DNA of 64,000 nt. Source: Methanoregulaceae archaeon (lineage in GTDB: Archaea > Halobacteriota > Methanomicrobia > Methanomicrobiales > Methanospirillaceae). The notes below the pieces were generated by a model. It had not been told where the DNA came from and searched no databases. It worked only from the letters and a program-made list of their open reading frames with translations. The position numbers and the translations under genes were made by a program. Positions 15,377 through 22,822 of the stretch are shown here, piece by piece. Positions within the stretch are counted from its first letter, which is position 1. The number at the start of each line of letters is the position of its first letter. The stretch spans positions 124,001 to 188,000 of the forward strand of contig JACTVG010000001.1 of NCBI GenBank assembly GCA_015660965.1, written 5' to 3'.

Positions 15377-15694
15377 ATGCAGGAATATCCGGTAAAACGA
15401 GGATTGACAAAGGGTCTTAGCACACGGATGGTAGTTGAGATCAAAAATTGTTTTGGTGTTGACCCAACCGTATCTGGTGGAAATTACCGAATAAGTTACG
15501 GTGCTCTAAAAAGGCTGGATGTAAAAGTTGGATCAGATGGAAAAAGTATCATTATCGACACTGAATCTAACTTAAACGTAAGTGATGAGGTGATTCTTGA
15601 TACCAATAAAAAGTTCCGGAAATATCTAGATATAATTACGGGTTTTTCAACAAAAGAGCGAGTAAAGCGTGCGAAAAGCGTCACTGAGGATTAA
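15377..15694 (+). CDS. DUF5611 family protein
   Basis: This small basic protein has 105 residues, beginning MQEYPVKRGLTKG. It has a beta-rich middle (GGNYRISYGALKRLDVKVGSDGK) and a C-terminal helix with ILDTNKKFRKYLDIITGFSTKERVKRAK. The pattern matches DUF5611, a family seen mainly in methanogens. Its function is unknown; the basic C-terminus could bind nucleic acid, but that is inference. It starts 38 bases from the divergent PAC2 gene, so the two promoters must overlap. Confidence 0.7.
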   Translation: MQEYPVKRGLTKGLSTRMVVEIKNCFGVDPTVSGGNYRISYGALKRLDVKVGSDGKSIIIDTESNLNVSDEVILDTNKKFRKYLDIITGFSTKERVKRAKSVTED

Positions 15695-15809
15695 AAAACC
15701 AATTAACTAAAACGATTTTTCATTAATATAGGGGTAATTCTCAAATTATGTGTGTCTTTTTTTTAAACGAATTAACCGAATTAAAAATATGACATTAATT
15801 TCATTTTTA

Positions 15810-17249
15810 CTATATTCTTCTCTTCCACCAACCGAAATACACACTCACAATTAAGAGACCTGTTAAAATAACTAATACAATCGGATTTTGTATTAGAAGT
15901 GTTGAAATCCATCCAAACATTCCCATTTCTGTCAAAATTGCCGGTTTTTGTAATTGTTGGACAGTGACGCCCTCTTGTTGTTTAGCAGCAGTTGCTTTTG
16001 CTGTCAATAAACCGAAGATGGAGAGACCAGCGGGAGATTTTGCCTCAAACGCCATGTTTCCTTTTTCATCTATGCCGATAAACGAAGTTTCTAGTACTGA
16101 TACACTTTTATCATCACCATACCGTACAATTGAGACTGCATTGATCCCGCCATTATTATTAACCCAATCCTGCGGGGCACTCATCCTTATTATCGCTGGC
16201 AGTGTAGCTTGAATATTTGTTTTAGTAATACTCATTGTGTAGGCAATAGATTGAATCTCTTTTCCAGTGTTTGCCGCAGCTATTTGAAATGCAGATTGAG
16301 CTTCTGGTGTCGCTTTTTCTGATATTGTTGTTGTAATTGAAGCGCCCTGTGGTAGTGATGTTAAACCAGCTTGCACTGAACCAGCAACTGTTCCGACCTC
16401 AGGAATACTTGCCTCAAGAGGTGTGGTGGAAAGACTGATACTTTGAATATTATCCCCTTTAACAACTCCGTTTTTTTCTTCAACATGTTCAGCAACAATG
16501 TTGAGAGTGAACCCTGGCTGAGTAATATCTATGGATTTGTCAGAAACTACTACTGTAGCCCCAGCTTTTTCTGCAGTAGTGCGATCAATAGATAATGTTT
16601 GCTGTCCTTGTTGATTTGTTGCAACACTTACACCTTGTGAAGTAAGTTCATTGGTTTCGGAGATTTGGTTACCTTCAGGAGGTCCTTCTGCCCCGTTTTC
16701 CTCTTTTGGAGCCCCTCCCTGTGCTGGAGGTGCCCCTTGCTGGCCAGATGGGGGTTTACCACTGCTACCCCCACCGCTCCCCCCTCCACTAGGGGTAGGT
16801 ATGGTTGGTGATGGAGATGGAGATGGAGTTGGTGGTGGGGGTGGTGGTGGAGGTGAAGTGACAACAATATAGTTTGTTATCTCAGAAATATTCGATCCAC
16901 CGTTATTGGATGCATTCAGAGATACAGTGAAGATTCCCGGAAATGTATAGACGTGTACTGGATTCTCATTGTTATCGAAAATCCCGTCACCGAAAGACCA
17001 ATTCCAATTTGTTGGTGATCCGGTTGATACATCCATGAAAGACACTGCCAAAGGAGTATTACCGGATGTGATACTAGCTATAAAATGGGCAGTGGGTGGT
17101 ACTAAGGTAGTTCCCGTAACTACACTAGTTGTGCTACCGCCGGCCGCAATGGATTGACATATCGTGAATCCTATTAACACAACCATCAATCTAATAAAAA
17201 AACATATTGAGATGCAGTTTTTCCTTTGAAAGATGGTGGTGTGCTGCAT
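15810..17249 (-). CDS. Secreted PKD-domain surface protein with C-terminal membrane anchor
   Basis: The 479-residue protein starts with a signal peptide (hydrophobic residues about 16-36). One PKD domain follows at about 50-130, with the typical GSPTNWNWSFGDG block and a VHVYTFPGIFTVSLNAS strand. A Pro/Ser/Thr/Gly-rich linker (about 133-200, eight consecutive prolines near its start) leads to a beta-rich region ending in PAGLSIFGLL. A C-terminal transmembrane helix with a WWKRRI tail completes it. It should stand outside the cell, anchored in the cytoplasmic membrane, with the linker crossing the S-layer. It diverges from the WxL-like gene cluster. Confidence 0.8.
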   Translation of the reverse strand: MQHTTIFQRKNCISICFFIRLMVVLIGFTICQSIAAGGSTTSVVTGTTLVPPTAHFIASITSGNTPLAVSFMDVSTGSPTNWNWSFGDGIFDNNENPVHVYTFPGIFTVSLNASNNGGSNISEITNYIVVTSPPPPPPPPTPSPSPSPTIPTPSGGGSGGGSSGKPPSGQQGAPPAQGGAPKEENGAEGPPEGNQISETNELTSQGVSVATNQQGQQTLSIDRTTAEKAGATVVVSDKSIDITQPGFTLNIVAEHVEEKNGVVKGDNIQSISLSTTPLEASIPEVGTVAGSVQAGLTSLPQGASITTTISEKATPEAQSAFQIAAANTGKEIQSIAYTMSITKTNIQATLPAIIRMSAPQDWVNNNGGINAVSIVRYGDDKSVSVLETSFIGIDEKGNMAFEAKSPAGLSIFGLLTAKATAAKQQEGVTVQQLQKPAILTEMGMFGWISTLLIQNPIVLVILTGLLIVSVYFGWWKRRI

Positions 17250-17429
17250 AGTATCCCAATTATTAATCCATTGATCTACTTATGTTTATTACAATAAGAT
17301 TATCATTTTTAATGTCATTATTGATAAAAATATCCATAATCTATCTATTTTACTTGAAAATTTTAAATGGCAAAATATAATAACTAAAAAGAAAAATTAA
17401 TTTTACCAATTATGTTGGAATTGATTACA

Positions 17430-17947
17430 ATGAAGAAATTATTATATTTTGGTTTACTCGTTGTATTAGGTATCTTTGCACTTTCCCAAGGAGTAATGGC
17501 TGGAAATCCGAATGCTAACGTTACTGGAACTCTTGCGGGACAAATAAGTTTGCAATGGGCTTAGGCAATAATTATAATGATACCTCTTTTTTTGCCTTTG
17601 TAAATGCGACTGGTAATTCAGGATGGCAAATGTCAGTACAGGATAACGATACTGCACTTGCTTATAAACTTGCAAATCCTTTGAGTGTCGGATCTATGAC
17701 GAATTGGAGTGCTGCTACGAACTATGTTAGTCCGTATCTAACAAGGGACATTAATGTTTCCGGTACTAATGTTGCTGGGCCATACATTGGTTTGACAGGT
17801 TCTGCACAACAAATAGCCACAGGTGGTCCCGGATTTAGAGTCTTGGTACCGGTTGTTATTAAACAAACTGTTGTTGGTGGGGATCCTCAAGTGGTAGCTC
17901 CTTATACTCTACGTGTAGTGATAAAATTCACGGGGTCCTCAAATTAA
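17430..17947 (+). pseudogene. Frameshifted WxL-like small secreted protein
   Basis: An intact signal peptide begins at 17430 (MKKLLYFGLLVVLGIFALSQ) but that frame stops at TAG 17562-17564. The rest of the protein continues in another frame from about 17535 to 17947 and matches the downstream gene closely (NYNDTS, WQMSVQDND, then NPLSVGSMTNWSAATNYVSPY). The shift is what one missing base (or two extra) between about 17510 and 17540 would give. It could be a real inactivating mutation, phase variation or a sequencing error; no long homopolymer is present at the site. Confidence 0.75.
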
Positions 17948-18007
17948 TTTTTTCATATATATTTAAGACAAGGAAATTTCTAATAAAGGGTCGGAAGTAG
18001 TTCTTTC

Positions 18008-18526
18008 ATGAAGTTTCTAAAACGAATTTATTTGAGAAAACTGATTTTTATGGGTTTTCTTGTCTTTGCTTTATTAAATGTACCCGTTCAAGCTGGAACT
18101 ATTACAATATCTGTTGGAAATACTTCGATGGGAGCGATGCACTTAGGTGATAATTATAACGATACTTCTCTATTTTGTATCGTAAATACTACGGGTAGTT
18201 GGCAATTATCGGTACAGGATAACGATACTGCACTTGCTTATAAACTTGCAAACCCTTTAAGTGTCGGATCTATGACGAATTGGAGTGCTGCTACGAACTA
18301 TGTTAGTCCGTATCTAACAAGAAGCGTTAATGTTTCCGGTACTGGTTTCACAGGACCGTATATAGGCTTGACAGGCACTCCACAACAAATAGCCAGTGGT
18401 GGCACGGCAGTAATCAATATGAGTAATCCTATATTTTTCAAACAAACCGTTATTGGTGGGGATCCTCAAGTGGTATCTCCTTATGCGTTACGTGTGGTAA
18501 TAAAATTCACTGGAACGTCTTCTTAA
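18008..18526 (+). CDS. WxL-like small secreted protein
   Basis: This 172-residue protein has a signal peptide (about 1-29, cleavage after VQAG) and a single compact beta-rich domain. Residues about 66-72 read SWQLSVQDND, a Trp-x-Leu motif, and the C-terminus reads SPYALRVVIKFTGTS. The two conserved strands placed this way resemble WxL domains of Gram-positive surface proteins, but similarity is only at motif level. It has no membrane anchor, so it is probably exported and retained by a partner. It is a duplicate of the broken copy upstream and precedes the DUF916-like gene. Confidence 0.65.
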   Translation: MKFLKRIYLRKLIFMGFLVFALLNVPVQAGTITISVGNTSMGAMHLGDNYNDTSLFCIVNTTGSWQLSVQDNDTALAYKLANPLSVGSMTNWSAATNYVSPYLTRSVNVSGTGFTGPYIGLTGTPQQIASGGTAVINMSNPIFFKQTVIGGDPQVVSPYALRVVIKFTGTSS

Positions 18527-18616
18527 ATTTAATTTAAAGAGCCCTGAAAAAAAATTCCATCAGTATATATATTTAATATAAGGAGATTTTAGTATAATAT
18601 AGGAGGCAATTATTAT

Positions 18617-19999
18617 ATGAAGTCATTACATAGTATTTGTCAGCAAAAACTTGTTGTAATCGGTTTATTTGTTTTTATACTATCTCTCTCTCTACCAGTA
18701 TCCGCCGGTCTCACTGTAATTGGATCAAAATATATGAATACTGTCTCACCTGGTGATACCGTTATTCATACGATGACCATCGAAACTTTGACAACCGATC
18801 CTCCTATGGGTGTTACTGTAGATGTAATGGGGTTTGGACAAGCAATAGATTCAGGTTACATTGCCCTTGATCCAAAAGACGATACAAGTCCCTACTCAGC
18901 TAGAACTTTCATTACACTTGATTCAAATAATTTTCAATTAACACCAGGTGATAAAAAAGTTGTTACTGCAACTATTACTGTACCGAAAAATATTGGTTCT
19001 GGGGGACGGTATGCGATTATTTATGTTAGCAGTAGCCCATTTGCAAGTGGCGGATCAACAGGTTTTGTCACTGCATATAACGTTCCAATAATGCTTACTC
19101 TTGCGGGTCCTGGGGTCACTCAAACTGGGTCGATTACTGACCTTAATATAGGGGCAATTGATCCAGGTCAACCAATACTCATTACAACTACGTTCAAGAA
19201 TACTGGAAATGTTCACTACTATAATACATTAAACGAAGTCCGAGTTACAGGTTCTGGAGGAAAAGAGATCGCTGTTGTTTCTAAAGGTCCTATTCCCGTT
19301 GCTGTGATCCCTTCGTATACGGTTAATTATAAGGTAATTCTTGAAAAAGCACTCCCGCCGGGAACATATACGGTGGCATCAAAGGTGAGTCTTCAAGATG
19401 GAACCATTCTTGATACAAAAACTACCTCTTTAGAAATTAAAAGTAGTTATGTAGCCCCCTCTCAAGAGGTTGACATTACACTAACACCTAACAAACCGTC
19501 TATCCTTTCATCATCGGATGGGAGGTTCACTATAAATTTCCCTGCCGGTGCGGTTTTGTCAAATGTTAATGTTGCCCTTAAACCTATCACAAAGGATCAA
19601 TTACCTGCTGCACCCGAAAGTGCAAAATTGGGGAGTACATGTTTCCAAGTTGATGGCCTGTCAGGACTCCTATCAAAAGAAGCTAAAGTTCAAGTAAAAT
19701 ATTCAAGCGCTGACCTTGATGCAGCAGGTGGCGATGCATCAAAGCTTGTGCTGTCAAGATACGACGAATCAGATGGTAAATGGACATTGCTTAAAACGGA
19801 TGTAGATAAAGGTGCAATGATCTTATCAACAACCACAAATCGGTTCAGCATTTGGACAGTTATGGTCTCATCAGGAGGAAGTGCGGTTTCGGGTCAATCT
19901 AACGGATTCCTCGGTCTTGGTCTTGGTGTAGAACCGGTAGTAATCATCGGGGCACTAGGATTATTTGTTATTGCTGTTGGTATACGCAGGAAAAATTAA
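18617..19999 (+). CDS. Membrane-anchored DUF916/WxLIP-like surface protein with ZU5-like domain
   Basis: The 460-residue protein begins with a signal peptide (about 1-31). Two beta-sandwich domains (about 35-155 and 165-275) follow the plan of DUF916 proteins (SPGDTVIHTMTIE, then GRYAIIYVSSSP, then LTLAGPG and a second domain starting ITDLNIGAIDPGQPILITTTF). A ZU5-like domain (about 285-415, RFTINFPAGAVLS...NRFSIWTVM) comes next. A C-terminal helix with basic tail RRKN anchors it. GGAGG lies about 10 bases before the ATG. In Gram-positive bacteria DUF916 proteins hold WxL proteins at the surface; the adjacent WxL-like gene suggests a similar partnership here. Confidence 0.65.
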   Translation: MKSLHSICQQKLVVIGLFVFILSLSLPVSAGLTVIGSKYMNTVSPGDTVIHTMTIETLTTDPPMGVTVDVMGFGQAIDSGYIALDPKDDTSPYSARTFITLDSNNFQLTPGDKKVVTATITVPKNIGSGGRYAIIYVSSSPFASGGSTGFVTAYNVPIMLTLAGPGVTQTGSITDLNIGAIDPGQPILITTTFKNTGNVHYYNTLNEVRVTGSGGKEIAVVSKGPIPVAVIPSYTVNYKVILEKALPPGTYTVASKVSLQDGTILDTKTTSLEIKSSYVAPSQEVDITLTPNKPSILSSSDGRFTINFPAGAVLSNVNVALKPITKDQLPAAPESAKLGSTCFQVDGLSGLLSKEAKVQVKYSSADLDAAGGDASKLVLSRYDESDGKWTLLKTDVDKGAMILSTTTNRFSIWTVMVSSGGSAVSGQSNGFLGLGLGVEPVVIIGALGLFVIAVGIRRKN

Positions 20000-20041
20000 T
20001 TTTTTGATGATCTCATAAATTTCTCTTTTTAAGAAAAAAAA

Positions 20042-22822
20042 TTATTCAATGATAATCGCCGGCTTGAACGGTAACGCCGTTACCGCTTTTGTGTGGGAAC
20101 TTCCTTCCGAATCAGTAATGTGAAATGGAACTCCAAACTCTTTTTCAAGGAAATCTTTCGCTTGCTCAAAGATGGCACGTTCATTAACGCCTTCAGTCGC
20201 GATCAGGTCCACTATCTGTGGAGGTAGGCGGTGAATCAAGTTCGTACATTGTTTTGCTGCATCTGTAACTTCTTTACCGCGTTTGCGCATTGTGTCATTT
20301 TTCATAATTTCGCGGATGGCGAGGTTTTTATCTGGTGCACGAGCAATTGTTGTAAAAACTTCATGTTTCCATTCAGGAGCCAAGGAAATAATGATTGATT
20401 TTGGTATAATTTGGATCAATTTTTTGATAGATTCTATATCTTCAACAGTGCGCTGAAGTAGTTCTTCGGCAAGTTCGATCCGATGGTTAATTAGTTTTTG
20501 ATCGGTGATTGGCCAATCGGCAAACGATACAAGTCCTTGCTCATTAAGATCTTGCCAGAGTTTCTCGGACGTAAAGGGAATGAAAGGAGCAAGTAAACGA
20601 ACCCATGTAGAACAGAGTGAAAATAATGCCCGGCTCCCCTCACTATTTTCTGTGAGACGTCGCCGGTACCATTTCAAATCATTGTCAATTCCGATGTATG
20701 CCTCTTGAAGTGCTTGCCTCGTTTGGAAGTTATCAAGAGCCACAGTCGTGCGTTCGACATGTTCTTGAAGGCGACTTATCAGCCAAGTATCGATATCCCT
20801 CGGCTCTCCGCCCACATCTTTCATTTCACGGATAGAGTTGTAGAACCGTTCGATTTGCTTTTTTGTAGATAAAACGAGTTCGTTACGCCAATCAAAATCC
20901 TGCCATGGTTCAGCACTACCCATAAGAAACATTCTGACAGTATCTGCACCAAACTCTTTGACGGCATCTTCCAGTAAAAAGACATTACCCTTTGATGAGG
21001 ACATTTTGGCGCCATTTAAAAGCCCCATTCCGAAAACGACCATTCCTTGAGGAAGATATTGTTTGGGAAAAATCGCAACGTGGTGAAAGATTTGGAAGGT
21101 TAGATGATTGGAGATTAGGTCTTTTGCTGAAAACCGGAAGTTGTAAGGGTACCAGTAAATGAATTCTTGTCTCATCGCATCGAGTTTCTTTTTTTCCGGA
21201 AGATTGGATGACTCTTTTCCGAGGAAAATATAATCAAATACTTCCGGAGTGAGTTTTTCTGGAGATATTTCTCGGATCTTGTTTGCGATGGTGTAATATG
21301 CCATATAAATTGTCGAATCAGACAAGGGTTCGATCAACTGGGTTTTATCCCATGGAAACCGTGTTCCTAATCCTACTCGCCGTGTGCATGCCCAATCCTT
21401 GAGCCAGTCAACTGTTCGGTCAAATTCAATACGCACTTCGGGTGGAACAAGAGCCATATCCTTCAGTTGATTGGAGACCTGTTTTTTCCATTCTGGGTCG
21501 CTATACTTCAGGAACCACTGGTCGTGAAGAATTTTTACCTTTACACGGTTTCCGCAACGACAGACAACCGGACGGGTATCAAATTCATACATTATTGCAG
21601 ACCCGTACTTTTTTATCATCTCTTGCGCTACATCCTCACGTGCAATGCGGACTGGCTTTCCACCAAACTTTTCGAAAAGCTTTCCTTTTGAAAATTCCGC
21701 AGAATAGATTTCCTGTGTGAGTTGTTCCACTCGAGGGTCGAGCTGGTTGGTGATACCTGCCTTTTCTACTGTATCTTTAGCGGGGATTTCGCCGTATCCC
21801 TCAACACGGAGTAGCGGAATTGGTTTGATATTTCTATATTTACCTTGCTGCTGGAGATCGCGAAGCGCAATATAGTCAAATGGTGCATGAGCAGGGACGC
21901 TCATTACCATTCCTGTTGCCATGTCGGGGTCGACAAAATCCGCAGGAAGAATTGAAATCTCACCGCAAAGTGGATGGGAGACTTTTTTATCAACCAAATC
22001 AATGCCCGGAATATCTTTTTCAATTATAACCGTATGATCTTGGAGTTGGAGTTTCTCAGCCGCTTCTCTGCTAATTATCCACGGTTCTCCGTCGACAAGT
22101 GACCGGGTATATGTGGTTTTTGGGTTAACCCACAGATTAGTGACACCATGGATAGTTTCAGGCCTTAGCGTAGCTGTTGGAATAACAGCATCTTCAAATT
22201 TGAACATGACGAGTGTGAATTTTATTACTTCAGCTTTGTCACCTTCAAGAAGATCATGGTCTCCAACGGGATTATCATCAAATGTGCAATATCTGACAGG
22301 GTGGGCTCCTTTAATCACATATCCAACATCATACAGGTGCTTCCATTGCCATTCAATAAATTTTGAATATGTTGGATCTACTGTCGTAAACCTACGACGC
22401 CAGTCAATGGAAAGGCCACAACTTGTCATAACACGTTGGTACTCATCTGAAAAGTGTTTGACAATTGTTAATGGGTCGGTAAATTTTTCAAGCACAGCAG
22501 GTGGTACTTTGTAAAGGTCTTTGTACAGCTTGATCGTTTTCTCGTCTTTCCGCCCAATCCTTTTCGAGATTCCAATTACTGGTGCTCCGGTCACATGGAA
22601 AGCCATTGGGTACAGAACCTGTCGACCACGCATTCGCCAAAAACGTGCAATAACATCAGGTACAATATACGTTCTCCCATGCCCAACGTGCATCGCTCCA
22701 CTGGGGTATGGATAAGCCACGTTCAAGTAGTATTTCTCTTTGTCAGATGGGTTTGATTCAAAAGCATGTGTCCACTTTTCCTGTGCTTCTTGTTCAAATG
22801 CCGTAAGATCAAATCTGGTCAA
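20042..22822 (-). CDS. leuS: Leucyl-tRNA synthetase
   Basis: This class Ia synthetase of 926 residues is of archaeal/eukaryotic type length. The HIGH-type motif HVGH is at residues 45-48 after YPYPSGAM, and the KMSKS-type motif KMSSSKGN is near residue 606. A large CP1 editing domain (about 190-430) contains [17 protein letters not shown]. It charges tRNA-Leu and edits mischarged products. The gene is convergent with the DUF916-like gene and lies just downstream of the PIN-ATPase gene on the same strand (40-base gap). Confidence 0.96.

Follow-up and report, generated by a model that had tools for sequence, protein, structure and literature searches.

Surface proteins of the WxL type and their WxLIP partners are known from gene clusters of Bacilli (PF13731, PF06030 and PF11797), in which exoproteins of both small and large size, each ending in a WxL domain, are encoded beside a protein made of two immunoglobulin-like (Ig-like) sandwiches and a C-terminal transmembrane helix. 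The system is considered to fasten adhesive proteins to the Gram-positive cell wall. WxL is regarded as exclusively bacterial (PMC9772566), and PMC10599100 interprets WxLIP as a peptidoglycan binder with a helix that enters host membranes. In a window of 64,000 nucleotides from a Methanoregulaceae archaeon (contig JACTVG010000001.1, positions 124,001 to 188,000), the stretch 15810-19999 presents a similar arrangement in four genes, which encode a PKD protein, a frame-broken small exoprotein, an intact small exoprotein of 172 residues and a membrane protein of 460 residues (Table 1). The methanogens that host this cassette are not known to have peptidoglycan. We describe the cassette as a variant of the WxL/WxLIP system, of which one half is a remote homologue and the other half a functional counterpart of unproven kinship. 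A preliminary description had correctly located the PKD gene, the 172-residue protein with its SWQLSV strand and conserved C-terminal strand, and the two-sandwich protein; it had overlooked that the small gene has a second copy, out of frame, that other genomes carry large paralogues, and that there is an N-terminal strand tag.

The 460-residue protein is a remote homologue of WxLIP (DUF916-DUF3324), a conclusion drawn from a collinear two-domain profile match and a fold match, despite Pfam scores below threshold. The profile of 47 WxLIP-like cores was compared by hhalign with 11 plasmid-encoded WxLIP sequences of bacteria, and this single comparison gave a probability of 94% over 228 columns across both domains (score 59.8, E 1.5e-7), against 28.1 for the reversed profile and a mean of 24.6 and maximum of 36.0 for 60 block shuffles. 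None of the 29 control queries, which were N-terminal regions of large proteins and included some duplicates, exceeded 2.3%. A value of 23.5% for the ZU5-plus-helix tail against bacterial WxLIP was discounted, its 21 columns falling on the transmembrane helix. The AlphaFold 2 (AF2) model of the protein, with a mean predicted local distance difference test score (pLDDT) of 89.9 and a predicted template-modelling score (pTM) of 0.79, shows two Ig-like sandwiches, a ZU5 fold and a C-terminal helix. Its top three PDB chains in Foldseek are all Enterococcus faecium WxLIP from entries of 2026, namely 9i25_C, which is bound to long WxL (E 7.1e-11), 9i1y_A and 9i1y_B. In VIA-align, 9i25_C reaches Z 18.3 (234 residues, root-mean-square deviation (rmsd) 5.2) and the other E. 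faecium WxLIP match 17.4, and WxLIP stands about 5 Z units above every other PDB row. Ankyrin ZU5 and single Ig-like domains come next; outside WxLIP, the pilus chaperone SfaE (Z 12.0, 179 residues) is the best match that extends over both sandwiches. The window protein also displays the tandem PGBD and HBD order of Ig-like domains and the C-terminal transmembrane helix. No relatives of the 460-residue protein were found in plasmids, and a HMMER search of the PDB with the core profile did not recover WxLIP, so that within the PDB the link is seen by fold only.

The C-terminal part of the family is more variable. A transmembrane helix is predicted in 35 of the 47 homologues; ten of the 12 that lack a clear one stop directly after sandwich 2 and are mostly of the Methanothrix type. 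A ZU5-sized tail is found in 16 of the 47 by the boundary of a hidden Markov model (HMM), or about 19 by length, so most WxLIP-like homologues lack a ZU5. Residues 282-421 of the window protein match the ankyrin ZU5 fold (Z 13.3, 129 residues, rmsd 2.5), which, unlike in ankyrin, would here be extracellular and ahead of the membrane helix. The anchor made of a ZU5-like domain and a helix, as first proposed for this locus, is thus present in the window protein and does not extend to the whole family; the optional ZU5 and the helix-free homologues also set the archaeal proteins apart from those of Bacilli. In the Methanothrix-type loci L074-L082, a two-sandwich protein without membrane helix is accompanied by several small WxL-like proteins and often adjoins an exported protein of about 1,100 residues.

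The pairing of the two families is beyond chance. Two separate whole-genome searches of the same 61 relatives, in which the 460-residue family was counted at E<=1e-29, showed the two families to occur in an identical set of 12 genomes; G040 and G046 gave only weak matches to the 460-residue family and no WxL-like gene. Of the 23 WxL-like matches, 22 have a homologue of the 460-residue protein no more than about 3 kb away, and the exception is on a 5.5-kb contig. The probability of such a coincidence is 5.7e-13 if the genomes are taken as independent, a figure that overstates the significance because they are related. In a sample of 392 genomes from the phylum, matches to the 460-residue family at E<=1e-6 occur in 38, comprising 20 strong (E<=1e-57) and 18 distant ones (best 7.9e-14), and the WxL-like domain is present in 17 of the 20 strong genomes (15, plus G038 and G310) versus none of the 372 others. 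In loci L046-L082 the WxL-like gene is on the same contig for 40 of 41 homologues, L063, which starts 106 bp from its contig end, being the exception. The two genes are separated by a median gap of 77.5 bp, lie within 200 bp of each other in 36 of 40 cases and share a strand in all 40; the adjacency noted in the preliminary description is thus strongly supported. At L042 the WxL-like neighbour was recovered by the whole-genome search and not re-found by the locus-level iterated profile. Apart from these pairs, a distant group of about 420 residues (L043:3902-5152 and 18 genomes) matches the WxLIP-like profile weakly, with no WxL-like partner found; at L043 its gene is set among exported proteins of 360 residues with a QSGGGDPP motif. 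The WxLIP_HBD match at L043 (1.4e-5) stems from this distant group, for which no WxL-like neighbour was found, and was set aside as evidence. In four genomes of one genus (L181, L183, L184 and L185), a WxLIP-like gene of about 330 residues occupies the same conserved setting, with no WxL-like gene nearby.

Small and large exoproteins that have a C-terminal domain in common form the unnamed family to which the 172-residue protein belongs; no Pfam family is assigned to that protein. An iterated profile finds this WxL-like domain of about 130 residues in 94 open reading frames (ORFs) of the fetched loci, duplicates included, in small proteins of about 150-240 residues and in large ones of up to 1530. 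It nearly always ends within 5 residues of the C-terminus (tail 0-5); L051 departs from this with a tail of 36 and a second piece near the end. Twenty-five large proteins were scanned (E<=1e-5), in which PKD occurs in 18, DUF3344 in 12, CARDB in 10, ice-binding-like domains in 4 and a subtilase in 1. Over 79 distinct domains one Q is invariant, Y is conserved at 96%, D at 94% and W at 86%, and the landmarks in the window protein are W65 of SWQLSV, the invariant Q146, D152 and the C-terminal strand 165-171. W-x-[LVI] is found anywhere in 72 of the 79 and W-x-L in 43. Such a motif, together with the same kinds of gene (small, large and WxLIP-like) and the C-terminal position of the domain, could indicate a true bacterial WxL system acquired from Gram-positive bacteria with its mechanism unchanged. 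We find this very improbable. The second W-x-L motif is missing, F (81%) occupying the last strand where bacterial WxL has its second W. PF13731 (WxL) gave no match above cut-off in the 61 genomes, its positive control having matched in Lactococcus lactis, and it is not among the 25 families listed, out of 29, for 68 WxL-like domains (E<=1). An hhalign comparison with 17-18 bacterial WxL domains was not significant, its score of 18.3 being reached by 3 of 60 block shuffles. Pfam, phmmer and profile searches of the PDB and three modes of hhalign gave no sequence link between the WxL-like domain and WxL.

The AF2 model of the small protein (mean pLDDT 79.3, pTM 0.71) has its best fold matches among chaperone-usher pilins (Foldseek E 1.6e-3; VIA-align Z 8.3, 119 residues, rmsd 2.8), followed by TasA-like TLP-1b (Z 7.6), and thread 7pnb and bundling pilus 7ueg are also matched. 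The WxL chain of 9i25 is absent from the 50 matches listed for this model, an absence compatible with kinship. The small protein parallels WxL by context and general fold. Profile-profile comparison, the check suggested at the outset, separates the two partners: the 460-residue family scores well above its shuffles, so that the DUF916 label holds as remote homology by profile and fold though not by single-sequence Pfam scores, and the WxL label of the small family holds as a parallel only. Likewise, of the "convergent or ancient" origin first suggested, the WxLIP half looks homologous, and the WxL half may be either.

The established parts of the system, namely export signals read from sequence, domain order, co-occurrence, adjacency, remote WxLIP homology, fold resemblances and a recurrent tag, led to a model to which we give an even chance, that of a peptidoglycan-independent surface-display cassette built on strand complementation; its strand donation, membrane-side anchoring and display are what we infer. 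The WxLIP-like protein would be exported, and its C-terminal helix would hold most homologues in the membrane. The last hairpin of the first Ig-like domain would supply a strand missing from the Ig-like fold of the WxL-like domain, in small and large exoproteins alike, and the modules ahead of that domain (PKD, DUF3344, CARDB, ice-binding-like, lectin-like, subtilase) would thereby be kept at the surface without peptidoglycan. Strand donation is proposed because no other strands of the core are as well conserved as the two of this hairpin (3.16 and 3.04 bits versus 1.83-2.74 for the others), because pilus chaperones lend the matching strand to the pilin, and because published models of the bacterial pair point the same way. 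In these AlphaFold models (PMC10599100), a hairpin strand of WxLIP is inserted in a gap of WxL.

Several observations tell against the WxLIP homology or against the display model. Single sequences align poorly with the bacterial WxLIP profile (44.7% for the window protein, at most 1.6% for four others), and the window protein scores 15.4 bits against a WxLIP Pfam cut-off of 27.3, with no match in its own genome. Among 39 homologues the best E-value for WxLIP_PGBD is 0.00019, and at E<=0.1 the generic Ig model fn3_5 matches 21 versus 13 for WxLIP_PGBD. Tethering is not universal, because 12 of the 47 WxLIP-like proteins have no clear membrane helix. Three genomes (G287, G368 and G383) carry an orphan WxLIP-like gene in one conserved setting, with no WxL-like gene detected. 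The fold match of the small protein is weak, and Z values near 8 can reflect a common arrangement. The sub-threshold Pfam scores, with fn3_5 doing equally well and Ig-like folds being common, would suit an ordinary cluster of Ig-like surface adhesins whose likeness to WxL/WxLIP is convergent and which forms no specific complex. Such a cluster seems to us quite improbable, given the collinear two-domain match far above its shuffles, the lead of WxLIP in the PDB list, and the strict co-occurrence and adjacency of the two genes.

Chaperone-usher pili (PapD, FimC and CsuC with the Fim, Pap and Csu pilins) resemble the cassette in the predicted folds of both partners, the C-terminal position of the domain and an N-terminal strand extension. 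In contrast, the fold-matched pairs share little sequence identity (mostly 6-18%), and the archaeal chaperone-like proteins mostly bear a C-terminal membrane helix. An outer membrane is not known in archaea of this kind, and no usher was recognised beside the cassettes, whose neighbours were inspected by eye only. Archaeal threads (Saci_0406), bundling pili and TasA-like filaments offer a parallel within the archaea, where donor-strand subunits are described (PMC9715654) and where the small model has some of its fold matches (TLP-1b, 7pnb, 7ueg). The passages on these subunits describe no WxLIP-like partner, and in the cassette the WxL-like domain is also fused to large cargo.

An N-terminal tag may add a further element. 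Many small WxL-like proteins carry an alternating strand right after the signal peptide, such as DTITVTGSI or GTADVSGNP, and a position weight matrix was built from 29 hand-aligned 9-mers of these proteins and used at a threshold of 8, the hand alignment being its weakness. A search by expectation-maximisation was discarded, as it locked on signal peptides. By the matrix, the strand tag recurs in WxL-like proteins and in neighbouring PKD/fn3 proteins: the threshold is reached by 22 of 78 secreted proteins encoded within 6 kb that lack a WxL-like domain, versus 1 of 46 encoded in 400 kb of genome G011, as well as by 5 of 19 large WxL-like proteins and 2 of 43 WxLIP-like proteins. This recurrence would suit a donor-strand-exchange fibre, in which the tag of one subunit fills the WxL-like groove of the next, the WxLIP-like protein serves as assembly chaperone, and tagged PKD/fn3 proteins without a WxL-like domain form a base or cap. 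The tags might in that case take over the place of the strand lent by the WxLIP-like protein. The pilin and chaperone fold matches of the two models and the existence of soluble two-sandwich homologues also fit such a fibre, and archaeal threads use N-terminal donor strands, with chaperone-usher-like assembly raised as an open question in PMC9715654. We nonetheless rate the fibre as rather unlikely. PKD regions of cassette-free genomes yield 38 secreted proteins, of which 5 also score at least 8 (in two of these the tag looks like a strand of an ordinary domain), and the tag-like strands of L252 seem to be part of an ordinary domain that is repeated, which weighs against the specificity of the tag. 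The rank-sum difference between neighbours and the G011 control is modest (p 0.035), the intact small protein of the window has no separate tag ahead of its domain, and an usher-like gene was not recognised. In bacteria, an N-terminal GxIxF strand is present in 12 of the 14 small WxL proteins considered, and it is reminiscent of the archaeal tag; one might guess that the two are equivalent.

The 37 named loci come mainly from Methanomicrobiales and from metagenome-assembled genomes (MAGs) of the Methanothrix type. A WxL-like and WxLIP-like pair also occurs on a contig labelled Dehalococcoidales (L070:6349-8263), which looks genuinely bacterial because apparent ftsA and ftsZ genes lie upstream of the pair. 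Dehalococcoidales are known to lack peptidoglycan. Two short, near-identical contigs (L049 and L050) come from MAGs labelled Bacillota and Chloroflexota. The premises that the system is exclusively bacterial, and that it serves peptidoglycan or host membranes, fall because a homologous WxLIP half is found in methanogens without peptidoglycan, mostly in environmental MAGs. The conserved function would be the holding of a partner protein, most simply through strand donation, and, judging from the archaeal parallel, the machine may at root serve to hold proteins by strand sharing and not to bind the wall. The cassette is also a candidate chaperone-like partner for archaeal donor-strand surface proteins, a gap raised for threads in PMC9715654. 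A still broader proposal, which we regard as unlikely, is that archaea and at least one Chloroflexota lineage share an usher-free donor-strand-exchange assembly, in which WxLIP/PapD-like proteins, often membrane-tethered, would chaperone pilin-like tagged WxL-like subunits; bacterial WxL/WxLIP would then be its Gram-positive branch, with an ancestral role in strand-swapped surface assembly rather than in peptidoglycan binding or host-membrane insertion. A full-text literature search, judged by titles and the start of abstracts and with most subscription journals outside its coverage, returned no archaeal WxL/DUF916 system.

Table 1. Coordinates of the cassette genes and their domains in the window.
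Feature	Coordinates	Strand	Evidence
Exported PKD protein, 479 residues	15810..17249	-	Pfam PKD_4 1.4e-13; translation
Second small WxL-like gene, out of frame	17430..17947	+	Translation; domain match 2.1e-19
Small WxL-like exoprotein, 172 residues	18008..18526	+	ORF; family recovered by whole-genome search; AF2 model
WxL-like domain (residues 32-170)	18101..18517	+	HMM boundaries, conservation, strands
WxLIP-like membrane protein, 460 residues ("BIG")	18617..19999	+	hhalign to bacterial WxLIP; PDB fold match 9i25_C, 9i1y_A
Ig-like sandwich 1 (residues 30-165), counterpart of PGBD/DUF916	18704..19111	+	Profile-profile, AF2, fold match
Last hairpin of sandwich 1 (residues 129-162, GGRYA...VPIMLT), proposed strand donor	19001..19102	+	Conservation; donor role inferred
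Ig-like sandwich 2 (residues 166-276), counterpart of HBD/DUF3324	19112..19444	+	Profile-profile, AF2, fold match
ZU5-like domain (residues 282-421), optional insertion	19460..19879	+	VIA-align fold match to ankyrin ZU5
C-terminal transmembrane helix (residues 440-459), then basic tail	19934..19993	+	AF2 helix; transmembrane helix in 35/47 homologues

The remaining genes of the locus include the out-of-frame small gene, which is 75% identical to the 172-residue protein; its frame 17430-17564 encodes a signal peptide and a tag-like strand, NANVTGTLAGQI, and the domain lies in a different frame, 17555-17947. The PKD protein, an optional partner of the cassette, comprises a tag-like N-terminal strand (TTSVVTGTT, scoring 7.4 and thus under the threshold), the PKD domain, a long Pro/Gly-rich linker, a C-terminal part of about 280 residues and a C-terminal hydrophobic helix followed by KRR. 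At other loci, homologues of its C-terminal part are encoded close to the WxLIP-like gene, and in L034, L052 and L054 directly behind it.

The cassette locus is unstable among genus-mates. Between the LeuRS gene and a gene for a 105-residue protein (window 15694-20042; L128-L131 and L039), the interval is variable, being almost empty, filled with different inserts or occupied by cassette remnants. It measures only about 200 bp in G001 and about 0.8 kb in G004, and holds 3.5-3.9 kb of other sequence in G003 and G005. In G002 the outer ends of the PKD and 460-residue protein genes remain, and the middle is gone.

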